NCBI GenBank assembly: GCA_028817035.1
Contig: JAPPQH010000007.1
Location: 1 to 32,652 of the forward strand
DNA: 32,652 nt
Direction: 5' to 3'
Origin: Candidatus Campbellbacteria bacterium
GTDB lineage: Bacteria; Patescibacteriota; Minisyncoccia; Phycocordibacterales; JABAAK01
Shown: positions 22,886-32,471 of the stretch, one piece after another
Position numbering within the stretch: position 1 is the stretch's first letter
How the letters are laid out: each line of letters starts with the position of its first letter
Translations under genes and position numbers: made by a program
The notes under the pieces: generated by a model
The model's database searches: none
Seen by the model: the letters and a program-made list of their open reading frames with translations, nothing else
Told to the model about the DNA's origin: nothing

Positions 22886-23812
22886 ATGACAAGCAGGCGT
22901 TCAGCACGCATCATAATACTACAAACACTCTTCGCATTAGATTCAAGGTCTATATGGACCCTGAAGGAAGTGGAAGAAGTGTACAAAAACACCATCACCG
23001 AGTTTAACGCAGAGGAAGAAGAAGAAACAGAAACAGAAGCAGAATCAGAGTCATCCTACTCCTTAGTCCTTTTGCGAGGCGTGATAGAAAAAAAAGAACA
23101 AATAGATTCCATAATAGAAAAAAGCACACCAAACTGGCCCCTTGAAAAAATTTCCATAGTAGACAGAAACATACTCCGCATAGGACTCTTTGAACTCCTA
23201 TTTGGAAAATCTTATGATGTCCCCGAACGCGTAGCACTCAACGAAGCCATTGAAGTAGCAAAAAATTATGGAGGAGAAAAAAGCGGAAAGTTTATCAACG
23301 GCGTTCTCGGTTTTGTATATCGCGAACTGGGAGAACCAGGCAGAGCAGAAATAACAGAACAAGAAGAAAAAAATACAAAAGTAAAAAAAACAGTAGGCGC
23401 GATGATCTCCGCCATGCGTGACAACGAACCAGTCTTTGCGATGGTCTACGACATGTTCAACAAATGGACATTATCAAAAGGCTCACTAAAAGAAGGAGAA
23501 AACCCCGAAGACGGAATCCTACGAATCATAAAAGAAGAACTCGGAATAAAAGTAGAAGTCCTTTACAGAATAGGGGAGAACTCATACATCGCAAACGACC
23601 CAAAAGACGGACGAGTAAGAAAAGAAGCCATCTACTTCCTTGTCCGTAGCGACTACACACCCCTAAAACTAAAAGAAGACTGCGGACTCAACGACGCACG
23701 CTGGTTTACAGGAGCAGAACTGGAAGAACTCCTCCTATACAAAGATATGAAAAAAATAATCCTCGCCTCCTCAAACGAAATCATATCAAAACACGCACAA
23801 AACAAACAATAA
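22886..23812 (+). CDS. nusB: NusB antitermination factor fused to a NUDIX domain
   Basis: The N-terminal half (about 1-155) is NusB, the all-helical rRNA antitermination factor that binds boxA with S10. It shows RRSARIIILQTLFALD, ISIVDRNILRIGLFELLF and VALNEAIEVAKNYGGEKS. A Glu/Thr-rich insertion (EEEEETETEAESES, about 42-55) interrupts it. The C-terminal half (about 165-300) is NUDIX-like: the box runs G199-x5-E205-x7-R213-I-I-K-E217-E218-L-G220, matching the consensus except that the E after R is Ile. The metal-binding EE pair is kept. This could be a nucleotide or RNA-cap pyrophosphohydrolase, or a binding domain with reduced activity. The frame is continuous, so this is a true fusion in the given sequence. 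It is followed by rnc after 13 bp. Confidence 0.88.
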   Translation: MTSRRSARIIILQTLFALDSRSIWTLKEVEEVYKNTITEFNAEEEEETETEAESESSYSLVLLRGVIEKKEQIDSIIEKSTPNWPLEKISIVDRNILRIGLFELLFGKSYDVPERVALNEAIEVAKNYGGEKSGKFINGVLGFVYRELGEPGRAEITEQEEKNTKVKKTVGAMISAMRDNEPVFAMVYDMFNKWTLSKGSLKEGENPEDGILRIIKEELGIKVEVLYRIGENSYIANDPKDGRVRKEAIYFLVRSDYTPLKLKEDCGLNDARWFTGAELEELLLYKDMKKIILASSNEIISKHAQNKQ

Positions 23813-25002: not shown

Positions 25003-25033
25003 ATTATAGCATACACACTCACCCAAATGTCAA
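25003..25033 (-). promoter_or_regulatory. promoter of the four-TM protein gene
   Basis: On the minus strand, TTGACA (25033-25028) is followed after 19 bases by TATAAT (25008-25003) with an extended TGC. The ATG is 6 bases further on. The -35 lies inside the 24-bp direct repeat (25023-25046). Confidence 0.75.
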
Positions 25034-25046
25034 AGATTGGTATAAT
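25023..25046. repeat. 24-bp promoter-containing direct repeat, copy 1
   Basis: CCAAATGTCAAAGATTGG followed by TATAAT is identical to 25500-25523. It carries TTGACA on the minus strand (-35 of the gene at 24529-24996) and ATTGGTATAAT, an extended -10, on the + strand. It looks like a compact divergent promoter module. Confidence 0.8.
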
Positions 25047-25481: not shown

Positions 25482-25510
25482 ATGTTACACCACACCGCAC
25501 CAAATGTCAA
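25482..25510 (-). promoter_or_regulatory. promoter of the 113-residue protein gene
   Basis: On the minus strand, TTGACA (25510-25505) is followed after 17 bases by TAACAT (25487-25482). The -35 is supplied by the second copy of the 24-bp repeat (25500-25523). Confidence 0.75.
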
Positions 25511-25523
25511 AGATTGGTATAAT
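25500..25523. repeat. 24-bp promoter-containing direct repeat, copy 2
   Basis: This is identical to 25023-25046, 477 bp apart. On the + strand its extended -10 TATAAT ends 7 bases before ATG 25531, which opens a 71-codon frame of doubtful reality that runs through a hairpin. On the minus strand it gives the -35 for the 113-residue protein gene. Confidence 0.8.
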
Positions 25524-25886: not shown

Positions 25887-25916
25887 TTGTCATAATTTAG
25901 GAAGTAGGAATATAAT
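25887..25916 (+). promoter_or_regulatory. promoter of the ATPase-gluzincin pair
   Basis: TTGTCA (25887-25892) and TATAAT (25911-25916) are separated by 18 bases. The ATG at 25925 is 8 bases beyond the -10, so the mRNA is leaderless or nearly so. Confidence 0.75.
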
Positions 25917-25924
25917 ATGTAGGT

Positions 25925-28240
25925 ATGATAAAGAAAATTAAAAAGTTGAAAAATCTTGGGATATTTAAAGATTTTAACTGGGGTTCTGAGACGAATGATT
26001 TTAAAAAATTCAATTTAATATATGGTTGGAATAGAAGTGGAAAGACATCTATTTCTCGTATTTTTGCGAGTTGTGAGAAAAAATGTACTTATGACGAAAA
26101 TAAGTTCAAGCAATACCCAAAACATGGAGAATTTGAGATAAAGACAGATAGTGTGTCCATAAAAGATACAGATGTCATTAATAATATTTTACCAATAAAA
26201 GTTTTTAACCAAGATTTTATAGATGAAAATATTTCTTTTGATGATTCAAACCTATGTAACCCTATTATTTATGTTAGTGATAAGGACATTCAAAGTAAAA
26301 GGCAATTGGAAAAATTAAAATTGGATAGTGATGATTTTTCAAAAAAACACATATTGGCAGAAAAAGAAATATTAATACAACAAAAAATAAAAGACAACTT
26401 TCTTGTGCCGTTAGCAAAGAATATTAAGGACGATCTTAATCTTAATTATACTAAAACAACTGTAGAAAATTTAATAAAACAAATCGGCATTGATAATTTT
26501 GATGGCAAATTTCTCTCTGATGAAAATGAAAGAAATTATACTAATATAATTAATAATGAGCCTAAAAATGAACAGCACAAACTTTCAGATTATCAAATCA
26601 ACTTTTCTTTTAATAGTAAAATTATAGATAATTTTCAAAAGATTTTTGAAGAAGTTAAAAATTTACTCAATAAAAATGTTATATCTGAATCATTAGATAG
26701 ATTGAAGAATGATCAAGATTTAAATACCTGGGTTAAGCATGGTTTTGATTTACATAAAACAAAAGAAGAAACAAAAAAATGTTTATTTTGTGAAAAACCA
26801 CTAGATAAAGATTTCTTAGATACCCTCTCAAGACATTTTAGTGAAGATTATGAAAAACTACAGAATCAAATTAATGATTTAAAAAATGGTATTTTGAGAT
26901 TTAAAGAGCAAGAGGTTGAAGTAGAAAATAAAGATCTTTATCCTAATTTGAAAAGTGGGTATAAGAATAATGCAGAAAATTTGAATAAATGTATCAGAAA
27001 AATGAACGAGTGGATTGATAAAACAGTAGAAATTTTAGAAGAGAAATACAACAAACCACTTGATGTTGTAAATAGCCCAGACACTCCACAAGATTTTTTA
27101 AACTCGTATAATTCATCTATTGCAAAGTTGAACGCTATTATTGAAGAACATAATGAGAAGACAAAAAACCATACCCAAGAAGTCGAGAAAGCAAAAGAAC
27201 AACTTGTAATGCACATGATTGCTAAAGCCTTATCTGAAGAAGATTTAAAAAAAATGAATAATGATTTAGAACAAGCTATTAATAATGAAAATACTATTAA
27301 AACGAATCTTGATAAAATTAATCCCGATATTCAAAAACTTGAGAATCAGTCTTCAGATATTGGTGTGGCAATTGCAGATGTAAATAAGCATCTAAAAGAA
27401 TTCTTTGGGGAAGAAGAAATAACACTTGAATTGGCTAAAGAAAATAAAGGATATAGCATAAAAAGAAACGGGGAAATAGCTGAAAATTTAAGTGAAGGTG
27501 AGAAATCAGCAATTGCATTCTCATATTTTATTGTTAAAGTTGGAGAAAAAGAATTTGACAAATCAAATGGAATTATTTTTATAGACGATCCAATTTCAAG
27601 TTTTGATTCAAACTTTATTTATCATTGTTTTTCAATAATAAGAACACATTTCAGTGAAGTTGGACAATTATTTATTTCCACACACAATTTTCAGTTTTTC
27701 AATCTAATAAAGAATTGGTTTATTAGAAATAATAAAAACAGAAAAAAGGGGAATAAAGACGAATGCTGCGAGTTTTTTATGGTAGAAAATTTTATTGAAT
27801 CAAACACAAGAAAAGCAAGAATTGTTGCATTAGATAAGACACTGCGAGAATATAAATCTGAATATCATTTTTTATTTTATAACCTCAAAAAGTTTGTAGA
27901 AAGGGAAGATATACAATATGAAGATTTTTATACTATTGGAAACATGGCAAGGAGATTTTTTGATATTTTTGCAGATTTTAAAAGACCAACAATAGAAGAT
28001 CAAAAGACCAAACTAGAAGAGTTGGTAAAGGATATTAATGACCCAGAAGAAAAAATAAGTATAGCAGAAAAGACAAAAGCGTATAAACTAATTAATGATT
28101 TCTCCCATAATTCTGATCCAGCTAGTGCAATAGAACATAAAGATAAAAGCGAAATTAAAGATGCGATAAAAATTTTATTAAGTATAGTTAAAGAATCAGA
28201 CCCAAAGCATTTTGAACTCCTAAAGATAAAATCTATATAA
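25925..28240 (+). CDS. AAA_13-type ABC ATPase, RloC/PrrC-like
   Basis: This is a 771-residue SMC/Rad50-like ATPase of the AAA_13 group that includes the tRNA anticodon nucleases PrrC and RloC. Walker A is GWNRSGKTS (34-42), followed by the family-typical VFNQDFIDENI (about 92). Long coiled coils flank a CLFC motif (C286, C289) with EKPLDKDF, resembling the RloC zinc hook. The second head half has LSEGE (about 522-526), Walker B IIFIDDP (D554, D555) with PISSFDSN, and the switch histidine in STHNFQFF (about 586). The C-terminal region (about 620-771) contains SEYHFLFYNL, NMARRFFDIF and INDFSHN. I cannot confirm the Arg-Glu-His nuclease triad, so nuclease function is unproven. The stop is 1 base before the next start. 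DNA is markedly AT-richer than the core genes, which suggests transfer. Confidence 0.82.
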   Translation: MIKKIKKLKNLGIFKDFNWGSETNDFKKFNLIYGWNRSGKTSISRIFASCEKKCTYDENKFKQYPKHGEFEIKTDSVSIKDTDVINNILPIKVFNQDFIDENISFDDSNLCNPIIYVSDKDIQSKRQLEKLKLDSDDFSKKHILAEKEILIQQKIKDNFLVPLAKNIKDDLNLNYTKTTVENLIKQIGIDNFDGKFLSDENERNYTNIINNEPKNEQHKLSDYQINFSFNSKIIDNFQKIFEEVKNLLNKNVISESLDRLKNDQDLNTWVKHGFDLHKTKEETKKCLFCEKPLDKDFLDTLSRHFSEDYEKLQNQINDLKNGILRFKEQEVEVENKDLYPNLKSGYKNNAENLNKCIRKMNEWIDKTVEILEEKYNKPLDVVNSPDTPQDFLNSYNSSIAKLNAIIEEHNEKTKNHTQEVEKAKEQLVMHMIAKALSEEDLKKMNNDLEQAINNENTIKTNLDKINPDIQKLENQSSDIGVAIADVNKHLKEFFGEEEITLELAKENKGYSIKRNGEIAENLSEGEKSAIAFSYFIVKVGEKEFDKSNGIIFIDDPISSFDSNFIYHCFSIIRTHFSEVGQLFISTHNFQFFNLIKNWFIRNNKNRKKGNKDECCEFFMVENFIESNTRKARIVALDKTLREYKSEYHFLFYNLKKFVEREDIQYEDFYTIGNMARRFFDIFADFKRPTIEDQKTKLEELVKDINDPEEKISIAEKTKAYKLINDFSHNSDPASAIEHKDKSEIKDAIKILLSIVKESDPKHFELLKIKSI

Positions 28241-28241
28241 A

Positions 28242-28808
28242 ATGATAAGTGAATTTGAAATATTGAAACATCTTCAAAATGAAATGCCTCATATAATGGA
28301 AAAGGTTGAAAATTTATTTGGAGAAAAGGATGAGAGCTGGGGATTTTCTGGGATTAGGATTTGTTCTGATGAGGATGTTCCTTGTGTATATTATCCCCGA
28401 GTAGAAGGAAAAAATATCGGAATATTAATATCCAAATCTTGTATTGATGACAGTGATTGCATAAGGGCAGAATGGCAACTTGCACACGAATGTGTCCATC
28501 TTTTATCTCCTGATAAAAATAAAGGAATAAACGCAAATTTTTTAGAGGAAGGTATGGCGACATATTTTCAGGATAAATATATTTCAGACAAATATAGAAG
28601 AGAGTTTAATTATAAAGAAAAATATAAAAAAGCAAAAGAATTATATTCCGAAATACACAATATAAATCCGCATATTATAAAAAAGATTAGAACAGAAAAG
28701 TGTCCTAATCTAAAGGAAATGACTAAGGAGATTCTGTTAGAATATTGTAAAGGTTTAAAAGATGATACGGCTGAAGCATTAATTCAATCATTTTATAATG
28801 AACAATAG
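28242..28808 (+). CDS. gluzincin-like HExxH protein coupled to the ATPase
   Basis: This 188-residue probable zinc metallopeptidase starts 1 base after the ATPase stop, so the two should be co-transcribed and translationally coupled. The motif WQLAHECVHLL gives H82-E83-x-x-H86, and FLEEGMATYF resembles the LxEGxAxYF glutamate helix of gluzincins (third ligand probably E103). The HExxH-to-Glu spacing (about 17) is short, as in minimal gluzincins. ImmA/IrrE-type (M78) peptidases share HExxH but usually have a different glutamate motif. The remainder is charged and helical. There is no signal peptide or TM segment, so it is cytoplasmic. A role in releasing, activating or restraining the ATPase, or in cleaving a phage or host protein, is inference from the pairing. 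Confidence 0.75.
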   Translation: MISEFEILKHLQNEMPHIMEKVENLFGEKDESWGFSGIRICSDEDVPCVYYPRVEGKNIGILISKSCIDDSDCIRAEWQLAHECVHLLSPDKNKGINANFLEEGMATYFQDKYISDKYRREFNYKEKYKKAKELYSEIHNINPHIIKKIRTEKCPNLKEMTKEILLEYCKGLKDDTAEALIQSFYNEQ

Positions 28809-28841: not shown

Positions 28842-30011
28842 TTAACTGTTTCCTTTTGCTTGATTGTGAGGTTTGCATAACATCTCACAATTTTTGATAT
28901 CAGTTTTACCACCATTACTCCAAGGTGTTACATGGTCGGCATCCATTTCTTTAAAATCCCATATTTTATCTTTTTTAGCATCGTGCCCAATAGCACAATA
29001 AGAACAATTTGATATCTTTTTCTTTTTGGCTTCAGCGGTTTGTTTATTGTAAACTTCTTTTTTGCCTGCATCATCAAACAAACGCACATCAAGTAATTTA
29101 GTATCTTTTGAGCCACCAAGAACATACTCAAAAATACCTTTCCGACTTTTAACATAAGGATCACCATAAAGTTTTTGAACTTCTTTTGATATTTTCTTTG
29201 AATCATATTTTTTCTTATGATATTCTTCATACAAACGCCCCCATTCCAGTCCTTGCATTTCCTTTTCAACATCTACAAACATGCCTGAGACCCAGTCAAT
29301 CACTTTATTAAAATGTTTCTTCAACTCATTAATATTCTCATCATAGCGATGGCGACTCATATATTCGTCAATCTTTCCTTTACTCACCCAGTCCAATGCT
29401 CTCTCAAAAAATGCTTGTCTATCTGCACTACCTCTTACATAAGCATTCCATTTTTCTATATTTATATTTTGACTATTACTAAATTCTTTTTTGCCCAATG
29501 TGACAAAAGGTCCAGAATAGATTGCATTTAATAACTCCTGTTCGTTGAGTGGGATTCCTTTAATATTTATGGTCTTAAACCATTCTTTTATTTCACTCTC
29601 TGTTCCTTCACATTCATAAATAAGTAACTTCGTTTGCAAAATTTTCTCTTTTTTGTCTTTTGCAAGACCGCTAAAATATTGTTCCATTCCACCTTGATCT
29701 TTTATAGCAAATTTTTCACCTATAAATCTTCCAAGGCTTGTTATTCGCTGTTGACCGTCTAAAACCTCAAATTTGCTACCACTTGTTTTATTAAAATAAA
29801 TCAATCCTATTGGGTATCCTTTTAGAACTGATTCAATTACAGCAGCCTCTTTTTCACCACCATCAGAGGCATAGAGATAATTGCGCTGATACTCTGGCTG
29901 AATGGTTAGTTTACCAGACAAACCAAATAGACCCTTGCCTTCAAGTTCGTTATACTCAAATCCTTTGCAGATATCTTCAACAGTAATATTGGTTTTTAAG
30001 GTTGTATTCAT
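28842..30011 (-). CDS. DUF262 (ParB-like) plus HNH nuclease protein
   Basis: This 389-residue protein has an N-terminal DUF262 domain, a ParB-like fold used in GmrSD and other restriction proteins: PEYQRNYLY (about 39-47) and the DGQQR motif (85-89). A helical middle leads to a C-terminal HNH nuclease domain: C336-x-x-C339, [12 protein letters not shown] (H360), N374 and [10 protein letters not shown] (C379, H382). All core HNH residues appear present, so it is probably an active, NTP-dependent or NTP-gated DNA endonuclease. It starts 1 base after the stop of the EcoRI-type methyltransferase, so the two form a tight operon and a likely modification-restriction pair. It is convergent with the ATPase-gluzincin pair. 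The DNA is AT-rich. Confidence 0.87.
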
Positions 30012-30012
30012 A

Positions 30013-31143
30013 TCATTTTTTGTGTTTTATTAATATGCGTGCATATTGTGGTTTACCTTTTATATAAGTGCAATCTGTTGCGCTTTTTGTATTATTCATT
30101 AAATGCTCTCTTTCCCCTTTCACATTAGAATTTCCCAATATTTCAAATTGGTCTGGATTATATTTATCAAGAAAAGTAATTGGAACTCCCATCACACCAT
30201 TATAATCGCTTGGAATTGCGTTTGTATAAGGTACCTCAATTGCATTATAGTTATCATAATTTTGATAACTATTTTCTTTTTTTCGTAATTGTTTGTTAAA
30301 TTTTTTATTATCTCTCGCCGTCATAAGTGATAGTGGTTGATGTCGACGACCATGATCAAGATTTGTGAACCATCTTATACTTGGGACTCTGATATATTTA
30401 TTTCCTTTTTCATCAATCCTTAAACTACTACTTCTAACCTCATAATAATTTGGCACTCTAAATTCAACATCACCGCTATGTATACTATAACCAAGCCATA
30501 ATTTATTATCTTTAATCAGCGGAAATATTTCTTTATAGGTAATAGCATTAGAATTTCCCAGTATTAGAAATTTCTTATCGTATTCCATTAAATGTGCAAC
30601 AAACTCTCTAAATAAAGAAAACGGAGGATTTGTAACTACTATGTCTGCTTGTTTTAATAATTCAATGCATTCATCACTTCTAAAATCGCCGTTTTCTTCC
30701 AAGGGTTTCCATTCATTGTTTTTATTTTGTCTCAATAATAAAGCAACGTCTTTTAAGTTAAACTCGCCATCGTCGTCTATATCGCCAACTTCATTTATAA
30801 TCATAAATCTATTGGCTGTTATTTTTGGACGACCTTTTTTGGGTGTTAATGTTTTATCATCCCCAAACAATTCTAGTTGCGTATTTGCTATTGGCGAAGG
30901 TTTGTAACTAGTGGTTATTAGTCGTTTTAATCCAAGCCTCCCAAAATTGAGCACAAAATAACGAAAGAAATTACTCTCATAAGGGTCATCACAATTGCAA
31001 TATACAACTTTGTCTCTAAAAGTATCAATATTATAATCTAAATATGCTTCAATTTCTTTTTGAATATCATTAAATTGAGTATAAAATTCATCTTTCTTGT
31101 TTCTTGCAGCATTTCTTAGATTTTTGTTTGAAGATTTTGCCAT
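30013..31143 (-). CDS. EcoRI-family adenine-specific DNA methyltransferase
   Basis: This 376-residue protein is of the EcoRI methylase family (N6-adenine, S-adenosylmethionine-dependent). The N-terminal [19 protein letters not shown] and [18 protein letters not shown] stretches are family hallmarks. The catalytic [15 protein letters not shown] contains NPPF at 172-175. The target site cannot be read from sequence. Five GAATTC sites noticed by eye (3527, 6884, 11911, 24399, 27398) show the EcoRI site is not absent here. The gene lies immediately upstream of the DUF262-HNH gene on the same strand (1-bp gap), suggesting it protects the host from that nuclease. No EcoRI-like restriction gene is present. 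ATG 31143 has a weak GGA ribosome-binding site and a TGGTAAAAT -10 (31169-31161). Confidence 0.92.
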
Positions 31144-31271: not shown

Positions 31272-32471
31272 ATGAAAAAGGAAGAAAGAAAAAAAATAAC
31301 AAAAGAGGAGTTTGAGGAAAGATTAATTGCAATGGTAAATGCCCCAGAGGGAAAATACTCTGGATTACATGCAAATGATAAATTTAAAGATAATTTTGAA
31401 CTAAAGAATTTTAACATATTAATAATAAAAAATTTAGTATTTGATTTCGATCCGTTTCAACTCACCTTTAATAGTCCTATAATGAACAATATTAGGGTAA
31501 TGGGCGCATTAGTAAATTTTCTTAATTGTAAATTTGATAAAAAAATTGGTGCTGCAATAATTATTACCAATCCATTTCAACTTAAAGATAATATTTTTTC
31601 TAAAATAGAGGTTTCAATGGACAGTTATGAGAATTTACAAAGACAAGAAAGTTATAGGTTAAAATTGTCCATTGATATTAAGGGAGATAAATTCGCAGGG
31701 ACTAACGAGTTTGATGAAATATTTATAGATATGCAATCTAGTAATTTAAATGGAAGATATTTTAGTGTAGAAAATTTAATTATAGACAATCCTACAAAGA
31801 AGGTAGAAATAAAGAATATCTGTCTAAATGGAAATATGAAATCTGTAATCATTAGGAGCGTAAGTATGAAAGGATTGTTTATTGGCTATCGTATCAAAGA
31901 AAATGTATTTTTTGAGAAAATAATGACCTCGTTAGCATTTAAAGTTTCAGAAGTTTTTCAGATGGAGGATGTTGAAATAACTGATGGATTTTTATTTAAT
32001 ATGGATCCAAAATGTATAGAGTTTAATTTTTTAAGAATAAATAACATAACTTTTCCACCTATTTTTAGCGAACAAAGACAAAGATATTTTTTTAATGTTT
32101 TGCGTCATCGGTTGGAAGAGAAGAAAGATTTTATCGGTGCTGTTGAGTTGTATAACCAAGAATTAAATTCGTATGCAGAAAATACCACTCAAGCACAAAA
32201 ATGGTTGATTCTTGTTAAAAATTTTCTAAGCAAGCATAGGACAGATATTTTAAGACCGATAATATTTTATTTCATGGTGATTATATTTTTCTTCTCTATT
32301 TATCTTTTATATTTTAGATGTGATTTTGACGATATATTCCCAGACATTATCAGACCTTGGAGTACTGTTGATGGGGCATGGGGTCCTTTTGAGGCAATAA
32401 GAATTATAGCAATATCAGTTTTGTATTATGAGATAATTGTTAGCGCGAGGCTATTTGTTTATAAGAAATAA
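31272..32471 (+). CDS. 399-residue protein with two C-terminal TM helices
   Basis: The family is not securely recognised. Residues about 1-280 are a soluble region alternating hydrophobic and polar residues (LIIKNLVFDFDPFQLTF, VEIKNICLNGNMKSVIIRS), suggestive of a beta-helix or solenoid, perhaps a degenerate pentapeptide-like repeat. A helical linker follows (RQRYFFNVLRHRLEEKKDF, AVELYNQELNSYAE). Two TM helices are at about 333-356 (IIFYFMVIIFFFSIYLLYF) and 370-396. The solenoid, linker and two-TM layout resembles pentapeptide-repeat membrane/ion-channel-type proteins, so a membrane effector is possible but unproven. It is divergent from the methyltransferase operon, and the DNA is AT-rich like the rest of the island. 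The start is ATG 31272, the first Met after the extended -10. Confidence 0.7.
   Translation: MKKEERKKITKEEFEERLIAMVNAPEGKYSGLHANDKFKDNFELKNFNILIIKNLVFDFDPFQLTFNSPIMNNIRVMGALVNFLNCKFDKKIGAAIIITNPFQLKDNIFSKIEVSMDSYENLQRQESYRLKLSIDIKGDKFAGTNEFDEIFIDMQSSNLNGRYFSVENLIIDNPTKKVEIKNICLNGNMKSVIIRSVSMKGLFIGYRIKENVFFEKIMTSLAFKVSEVFQMEDVEITDGFLFNMDPKCIEFNFLRINNITFPPIFSEQRQRYFFNVLRHRLEEKKDFIGAVELYNQELNSYAENTTQAQKWLILVKNFLSKHRTDILRPIIFYFMVIIFFFSIYLLYFRCDFDDIFPDIIRPWSTVDGAWGPFEAIRIIAISVLYYEIIVSARLFVYKK

Follow-up and report, generated by a model that had tools for sequence, protein, structure and literature searches.

An RloC-family ATPase gene adjoining a predicted gluzincin gene in a low-GC, restriction-associated region of a Candidatus Campbellbacteria genome

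RloC is thought to have replaced the reliance of PrrC on a restriction enzyme with an internal switch. PrrC, as encoded in EcoprrI, is a protein of 341–416 aa with an ABC–HEPN layout and no zinc-hook insert, and it is linked to type I restriction–modification (R-M). RloC is an ABC ATPase of 658–897 aa in which a coiled coil bearing a CX2C zinc hook divides the ATPase, and the C-terminal region carries an Arg-X3-Glu-X36–52-His triad in which a Ser often precedes the His (PMC2610378). The nuclease of RloC and PrrC has been assigned to the HEPN superfamily (PMC3710099). Characterised RloC is ATP-driven, is activated by linear DNA and by inducers of DNA breaks, and has an internal switch; according to a published proposal it works without an external partner (PMC3874168). 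Zinc-hook mutants of the Geobacillus RloC are hyperactive, and it has been suggested that partly degraded forms may be active (PMC2610378). In a 2008 survey, only eight of 72 RloC genes lay at type I or III R-M loci, a figure that does not extend to type II, and two RloC genes were reported adjoining ArdC (PMC2610378).

The window analysed here is the whole of a 32,652-nucleotide stretch of a Candidatus Campbellbacteria contig, from a genome of 566 kb with a completeness of 97%. It contains an RloC-type gene followed, on the same strand, by a gene for a 188-aa protein (Table 1). A preliminary description of this DNA had reported the two ORFs as very tightly spaced, and ORF analysis confirms both their coordinates and the gap of one base between them. 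Both genes start with ATG.

Table 1. Features of the RloC–peptidase region, with positions in the window
Feature	Position	Strand	Basis or remarks
Sigma-70-like promoter match, TTGTCA-18-TATAAT	25887..25916	+	Directly 5' of RloC; 11/12 consensus matches
RloC-family protein, 771 aa	25925..28240	+	ABC ATPase head, inserted putative coiled coil with zinc hook, C-terminal HEPN nuclease
Walker A, GWNRSGKT, residues 34–41	26024..26047	+	G34, G39 and K40 invariant in relatives
Zinc-hook motif, CLFC, residues 286–289	26780..26791	+	Both Cys invariant in every relative aligned
ABC signature, LSEGEKS, residues 522–528	27488..27508	+	Key residues invariant in relatives
Walker B, IIFIDD, residues 550–555	27572..27589	+	Key residues invariant in relatives
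HEPN-fold nuclease domain, residues 645–771	27857..28237	+	AlphaFold2 model, pLDDT 81; triad R676, D680, H728
Predicted gluzincin metallopeptidase, 188 aa	28242..28808	+	Motif conservation, AlphaFold2 model, structural alignment
Predicted zinc-binding motif, HECVH, residues 82–86	28485..28499	+	
Candidate third zinc ligand, E102-E103, in E-x-x-A context	28545..28550	+	Both Glu and A106 invariant
GmrSD_N/DUF262-HNH type II restriction endonuclease	28842..30011	-	PADLOC REase_II, 9e-80; convergent with peptidase gene
M.EcoRI-type adenine methyltransferase	30013..31143	-	PF13651, 6.8e-137; PADLOC MTase_II

The first gene had been described as an RloC-like AAA_13 ATPase with a CxxC hook and intact Walker and signature motifs, and profile searches and alignment agree with this. 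The protein matches Pfam AAA_13 (E=1.9e-127, residues 11–753), and its best profile match, over the full length, is the PADLOC candidate PDC-S06 (4.4e-162), a putative single-gene phage defence whose profile covers one protein. A match to Lamassu LmuB (4e-8) was dismissed as generic SMC/ABC similarity, that to PDC-S06 being far stronger. C286 and C289 fall between Walker A and the ABC signature, so that the hook insert splits the ATPase domain, and the length lies inside the RloC range. In size, ABC motifs and CX2C insert, the protein resembles RloC of Geobacillus kaustophilus and Acinetobacter baylyi (PMC2610378; PMC3874168). With PrrC it has the ABC–HEPN layout in common, but it is far longer and has a hook, and the R-M genes beside it are type II and convergent; the location of PrrC in an R-M operon is instead shared by same-phylum relatives of the window ATPase.

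At the C-terminus, the Arg–Glu–His triad proposed in the preliminary description is present in part: Arg, His and an RloC-like spacing were found (R676-x3-D680-x47-H728, with S727 before the His), but the acid is Asp and not the Glu of characterised RloC. R676, S727, H728 and both hook Cys are invariant in 18 of 18 viral-contig relatives aligned, of which 16 have Glu and two have Asp at position 680. Asp also occupies this position in several RloC genes of the same phylum, all of them without the peptidase. For an AlphaFold2 model of residues 585–771 (pLDDT 81), the top VIA-align ranks are HEPN toxins and HEPN-fold proteins (Z 7–9), in agreement with the superfamily assignment of the RloC/PrrC nuclease. 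The triad spacing and the model support a C-terminus of the anticodon-nuclease type, as had been suggested. The ABC motifs, the position of the CX2C hook, the HEPN-type domain and the length are thus those of RloC and, because these and the triad spacing agree with the published definition, the ATPase is treated here as a member of the RloC family, with Asp for Glu the one point of difference in the triad.

The gene downstream of the peptidase gene is convergent, so the transcription unit stops after RloC and the peptidase, which are probably carried on one message. The promoter-like sequence 5' of RloC is a consensus match only, such sites being no commoner in the scan than in shuffled sequence. 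GC3 is nearly equal in the RloC and peptidase genes (0.20 and 0.21), and stays at 0.20–0.25 through the restriction pair and a 399-aa gene to the contig end at 32652, against 0.27–0.49 elsewhere in the window. The endonuclease shares 65.6% identity with a homologue on a Moraxella plasmid. In view of this homologue and the drop in GC3, the low-GC stretch looks like a horizontally acquired defence island. The defence setting proposed for the two genes is borne out by the type II R-M pair in the same stretch (28842–31143), which is the only R-M adjoining RloC on the contig.

The 399-aa protein encoded in the low-GC stretch (31272–32471) has no match in Pfam, PADLOC, NCBIfam or PHROGs; hydrophobic stretches close to its C-terminus suggest membrane segments. 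Just 5' of the island, a 33-nt direct repeat (88%; 25014–25046 and 25491–25523) lies at the starts of two doubtful small ORFs and is possibly a remnant of an insertion boundary. Elsewhere in the window, a single 308-aa ORF just before RNase III (22886–23812) combines a NusB domain (residues 6–145) with a NUDIX domain (residues 190–292), and the contig start (175–8871) encodes two large proteins, of 854 and 1915 aa, both with LVIVD repeats.

The 188-aa protein falls into no family of Pfam, NCBIfam, PHROGs or PADLOC. Across 22 aligned relatives from many phyla, H82, E83, H86, E102, E103 and A106 do not vary, so the HECVH and LEEGMATYF (residues 101–109) motifs are not a chance resemblance. HECVH-X15/16-E fits the gluzincin pattern HEXXH-X(8–28)-E (PMC9266454), the spacing being about two residues shorter in most relatives. 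The AlphaFold2 model has a mean pLDDT of 93.6, and in VIA-align about 160–169 of its 188 residues align with M1 catalytic domains (Z about 10), with leukotriene A4 hydrolase (LTA4H), IRAP and aminopeptidase N the best structural matches. In M1 enzymes the HEXXH–Glu spacing is X18. The window protein shares with M1 gluzincins the predicted fold over nearly all of its length, the HEXXH and the downstream Glu, but differs from them in being a stand-alone single domain with a shorter spacing and no detectable sequence family. Foldseek with the same model gave no E-value below 0.2, so the fold call depends on VIA-align together with the catalytic motif. No signal-peptide-like start is visible at the N-terminus. 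A compact gluzincin metallopeptidase is thus predicted from model and motif, in line with the earlier reading of the partner as a cytoplasmic zinc peptidase of this type, and its family is apparently undescribed.

Kinship with M78/ArdC-type proteins was considered because of the two RloC genes reported beside ArdC. A Pfam scan of the 22 peptidase members gave no family match, M78, ImmA-IrrE and ArdC-type families included, with which distant kinship remains compatible; the structural matches listed for the model contain no M78/ArdC-type proteins, which excludes nothing. One of the 22 relatives matches NCBIfam NF045524 (MXAN_6640 family HExxH putative metalloprotease) very weakly (E=0.009), and the window protein does not match it. 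A hit of a single member to the polysialyltransferase family PF07388 (E 6e-4, below cut-off) and matches to caspases in the PDB (E 0.2–0.5) were rejected as chance.

Profile searches placed relatives of the peptidase in 17 bacterial genomes, which range from Cyanobacteria to Chloroflexi, and in 22 plasmid records, a number of which are short fragments. One further relative lies on a viral contig (L057:5917–6483) among apparent phage structural genes, as prophage cargo would. Queried singly, neither the window peptidase nor the ATPase retrieved relatives from genomes and viral contigs; these were found once alignments served as the query. No peptidase relative was found in phage records at E 1e-3, and searches of 240, 286 and 380 genomes of the same phylum or class, and of 251 genomes around a Chloroflexi member, yielded a single additional hit, distant and weak (L056, E 2e-6).

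The neighbours of these genes are diverse, and comprise HsdM, HsdS or HsdR, a RelB-domain gene, an Abi-like gene, or none. On a Deinococcus plasmid the order is HsdM–HsdS–peptidase–HsdR with a 4-nt overlap; so tight an arrangement suggests that co-expression with defence genes is selected for. HsdM–peptidase–HsdS and HsdM–peptidase arrangements occur at two further loci (L011 and L014), and at another (L021) the peptidase adjoins a type ISP enzyme. In enterobacterial plasmids the peptidase comes after other genes, several of which have a RelB-antitoxin-like N-terminus; a convergent gene of about 290 aa lies directly after the peptidase in these plasmids. Proteins that appear alike by eye are encoded near the peptidase in Achromobacter (L003:4126–4977) and Phytobacter (L016:8522–9196), the former without a Pfam match. 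In Yersinia thracica (L020:7686–8522) the peptidase domain lies in one ORF behind a signal-peptide-like N-terminus, and to judge from this N-terminus the protein may be exported or the product of a gene fusion. Restriction-linked peptidases are scattered in the tree, and the window peptidase is a long branch which belongs to no supported set and cannot be placed, as expected for a mobile accessory gene.

The preliminary description proposed that the ATPase and the peptidase may form a new two-gene defence system, and named failure of the pair to recur in other genomes as one result that would refute this. In a profile search of 71 loci, the peptidase was detected only in the window and in loci that had been fetched by the peptidase itself, the distant L056 among them. 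The 71 loci include about 30 other RloC loci with their flanks, drawn from plasmids, viral contigs and same-phylum genomes, although a few of them end soon after RloC; none carries the peptidase, and none was found when the flanks of six same-phylum RloC loci were widened to 6.7–18 kb. Conversely, no close RloC was found at E 1e-10 in any of the 17 peptidase genomes, the query's own genome serving as the positive control. Among 380 same-phylum genomes, RloC-type genes are present in seven and the peptidase family in two, the second very distant, and the two overlap in the window genome alone. The RloC–peptidase pair is so far a single instance in the plasmid, viral-contig and genome loci searched. 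As the pair recurred in none of these, the searches lend no support to a fixed new two-gene system; the novelty lies not in the pair but in the apparently undescribed gluzincin family and its repeated occurrence in restriction operons.

Linkage to restriction is seen for RloC as well. Five of the seven same-phylum RloC-type genes, the window gene included, are restriction-linked and two (L080 and L081) are unlinked, in what is a small sample. In L076 RloC comes fourth in a type I operon (HsdR–HsdM–HsdS–RloC), in L079 it lies between HsdS and HsdR (HsdM–HsdS–RloC–HsdR), and in L078 it follows two methylases and an AlwI-type endonuclease. At a fourth locus (L077:7578–11973, genome G210), an AAA_13/PDC-S06 ATPase with a CAFC hook and a C-terminus of the form FRKICE...QH is encoded between M.EcoRI and GmrSD/HNH genes in one operon, an RloC-type protein thus separating M from R. 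Genes of both these restriction families also adjoin the window pair, in convergent orientation. At these four loci, some of the subunit names were read from sequence and not profile-scanned. On a Shewanella plasmid (L031:4941–8034), a TIR-domain gene comes after an RloC-type ATPase gene and may be a further accessory.

We consider it rather probable that the window RloC is an anticodon nuclease acting as a second line of defence beside the type II R-M pair, with the gluzincin as a modular neighbour and not a fixed partner. By analogy with characterised RloC, DNA ends or a failure of restriction would drive the ATPase, and this would unleash the HEPN domain to cut tRNAs in the anticodon loop and stop translation. 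D680 in place of the catalytic Glu counts against a plain anticodon-nuclease reading, and the convergent orientation of the restriction genes, outside the RloC operon, counts against RloC as their guard. The peptidase belongs to a mobile, apparently undescribed family whose members are accessories of various defence loci. The likeliest role for it, put forward with low confidence, would be proteolytic control in the restriction/RloC response, with RloC, a restriction subunit or a phage anti-restriction protein as the target; the many unrelated genes that adjoin its relatives count against assigning it such a role. They would also fit two independent mobile defence genes that came to lie side by side by chance and have no functional link, as would the scatter of restriction-linked copies on the tree and the presence in the island of an R-M pair and the 399-aa gene. 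Chance is nevertheless somewhat unlikely, as a one-base gap is tighter than expected of unrelated insertions and the Deinococcus peptidase gene is likewise closely embedded in its operon.

The same tight gap, shared strand and matching GC3 could point instead to a dedicated system, in which the peptidase specifically activates, releases or restrains RloC, for example by cutting the hook or coiled coil or by freeing the HEPN domain. Proteolytic activation is attractive since zinc-hook mutants are hyperactive (PMC2610378), but RloC genes without the peptidase are the rule, and the internal switch of characterised RloC is proposed to work independently of a partner (PMC3874168). With the pair absent from about 30 RloC loci and about 29 peptidase loci, no second case in 380 same-phylum genomes, and no peptidase beside the closest RloC found (L076, 48% identical over its length), such a dedicated system is unlikely. 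It is very improbable that the peptidase is the effector and the ATPase a DNA-end sensor whose nuclease is weakened by Asp-680. The Asp itself would suit that arrangement, and the Deinococcus peptidase fills the HsdS–HsdR slot that RloC takes in another operon; R676, S727 and H728 are kept, however, the triad is otherwise under clear constraint, and several same-phylum RloC genes without the peptidase also have Asp.

With the restriction linkage seen in the phylum, type II included, the idea of RloC as a guard of restriction becomes testable. One may speculate, as a long shot, that the mobile restriction-linked gluzincins respond to a breach of restriction by cleaving the linked nuclease, an anti-restriction protein or a subunit of the restriction enzyme. 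If this were true, the window peptidase would add a proteolytic switch to the ATP-driven one of RloC, and a defence nuclease would be under the control of a zinc peptidase. With its genes in restriction operons, on plasmids and on a viral contig, the unnamed gluzincin family offers a concrete candidate for a proteolytic layer of anti-phage defence.
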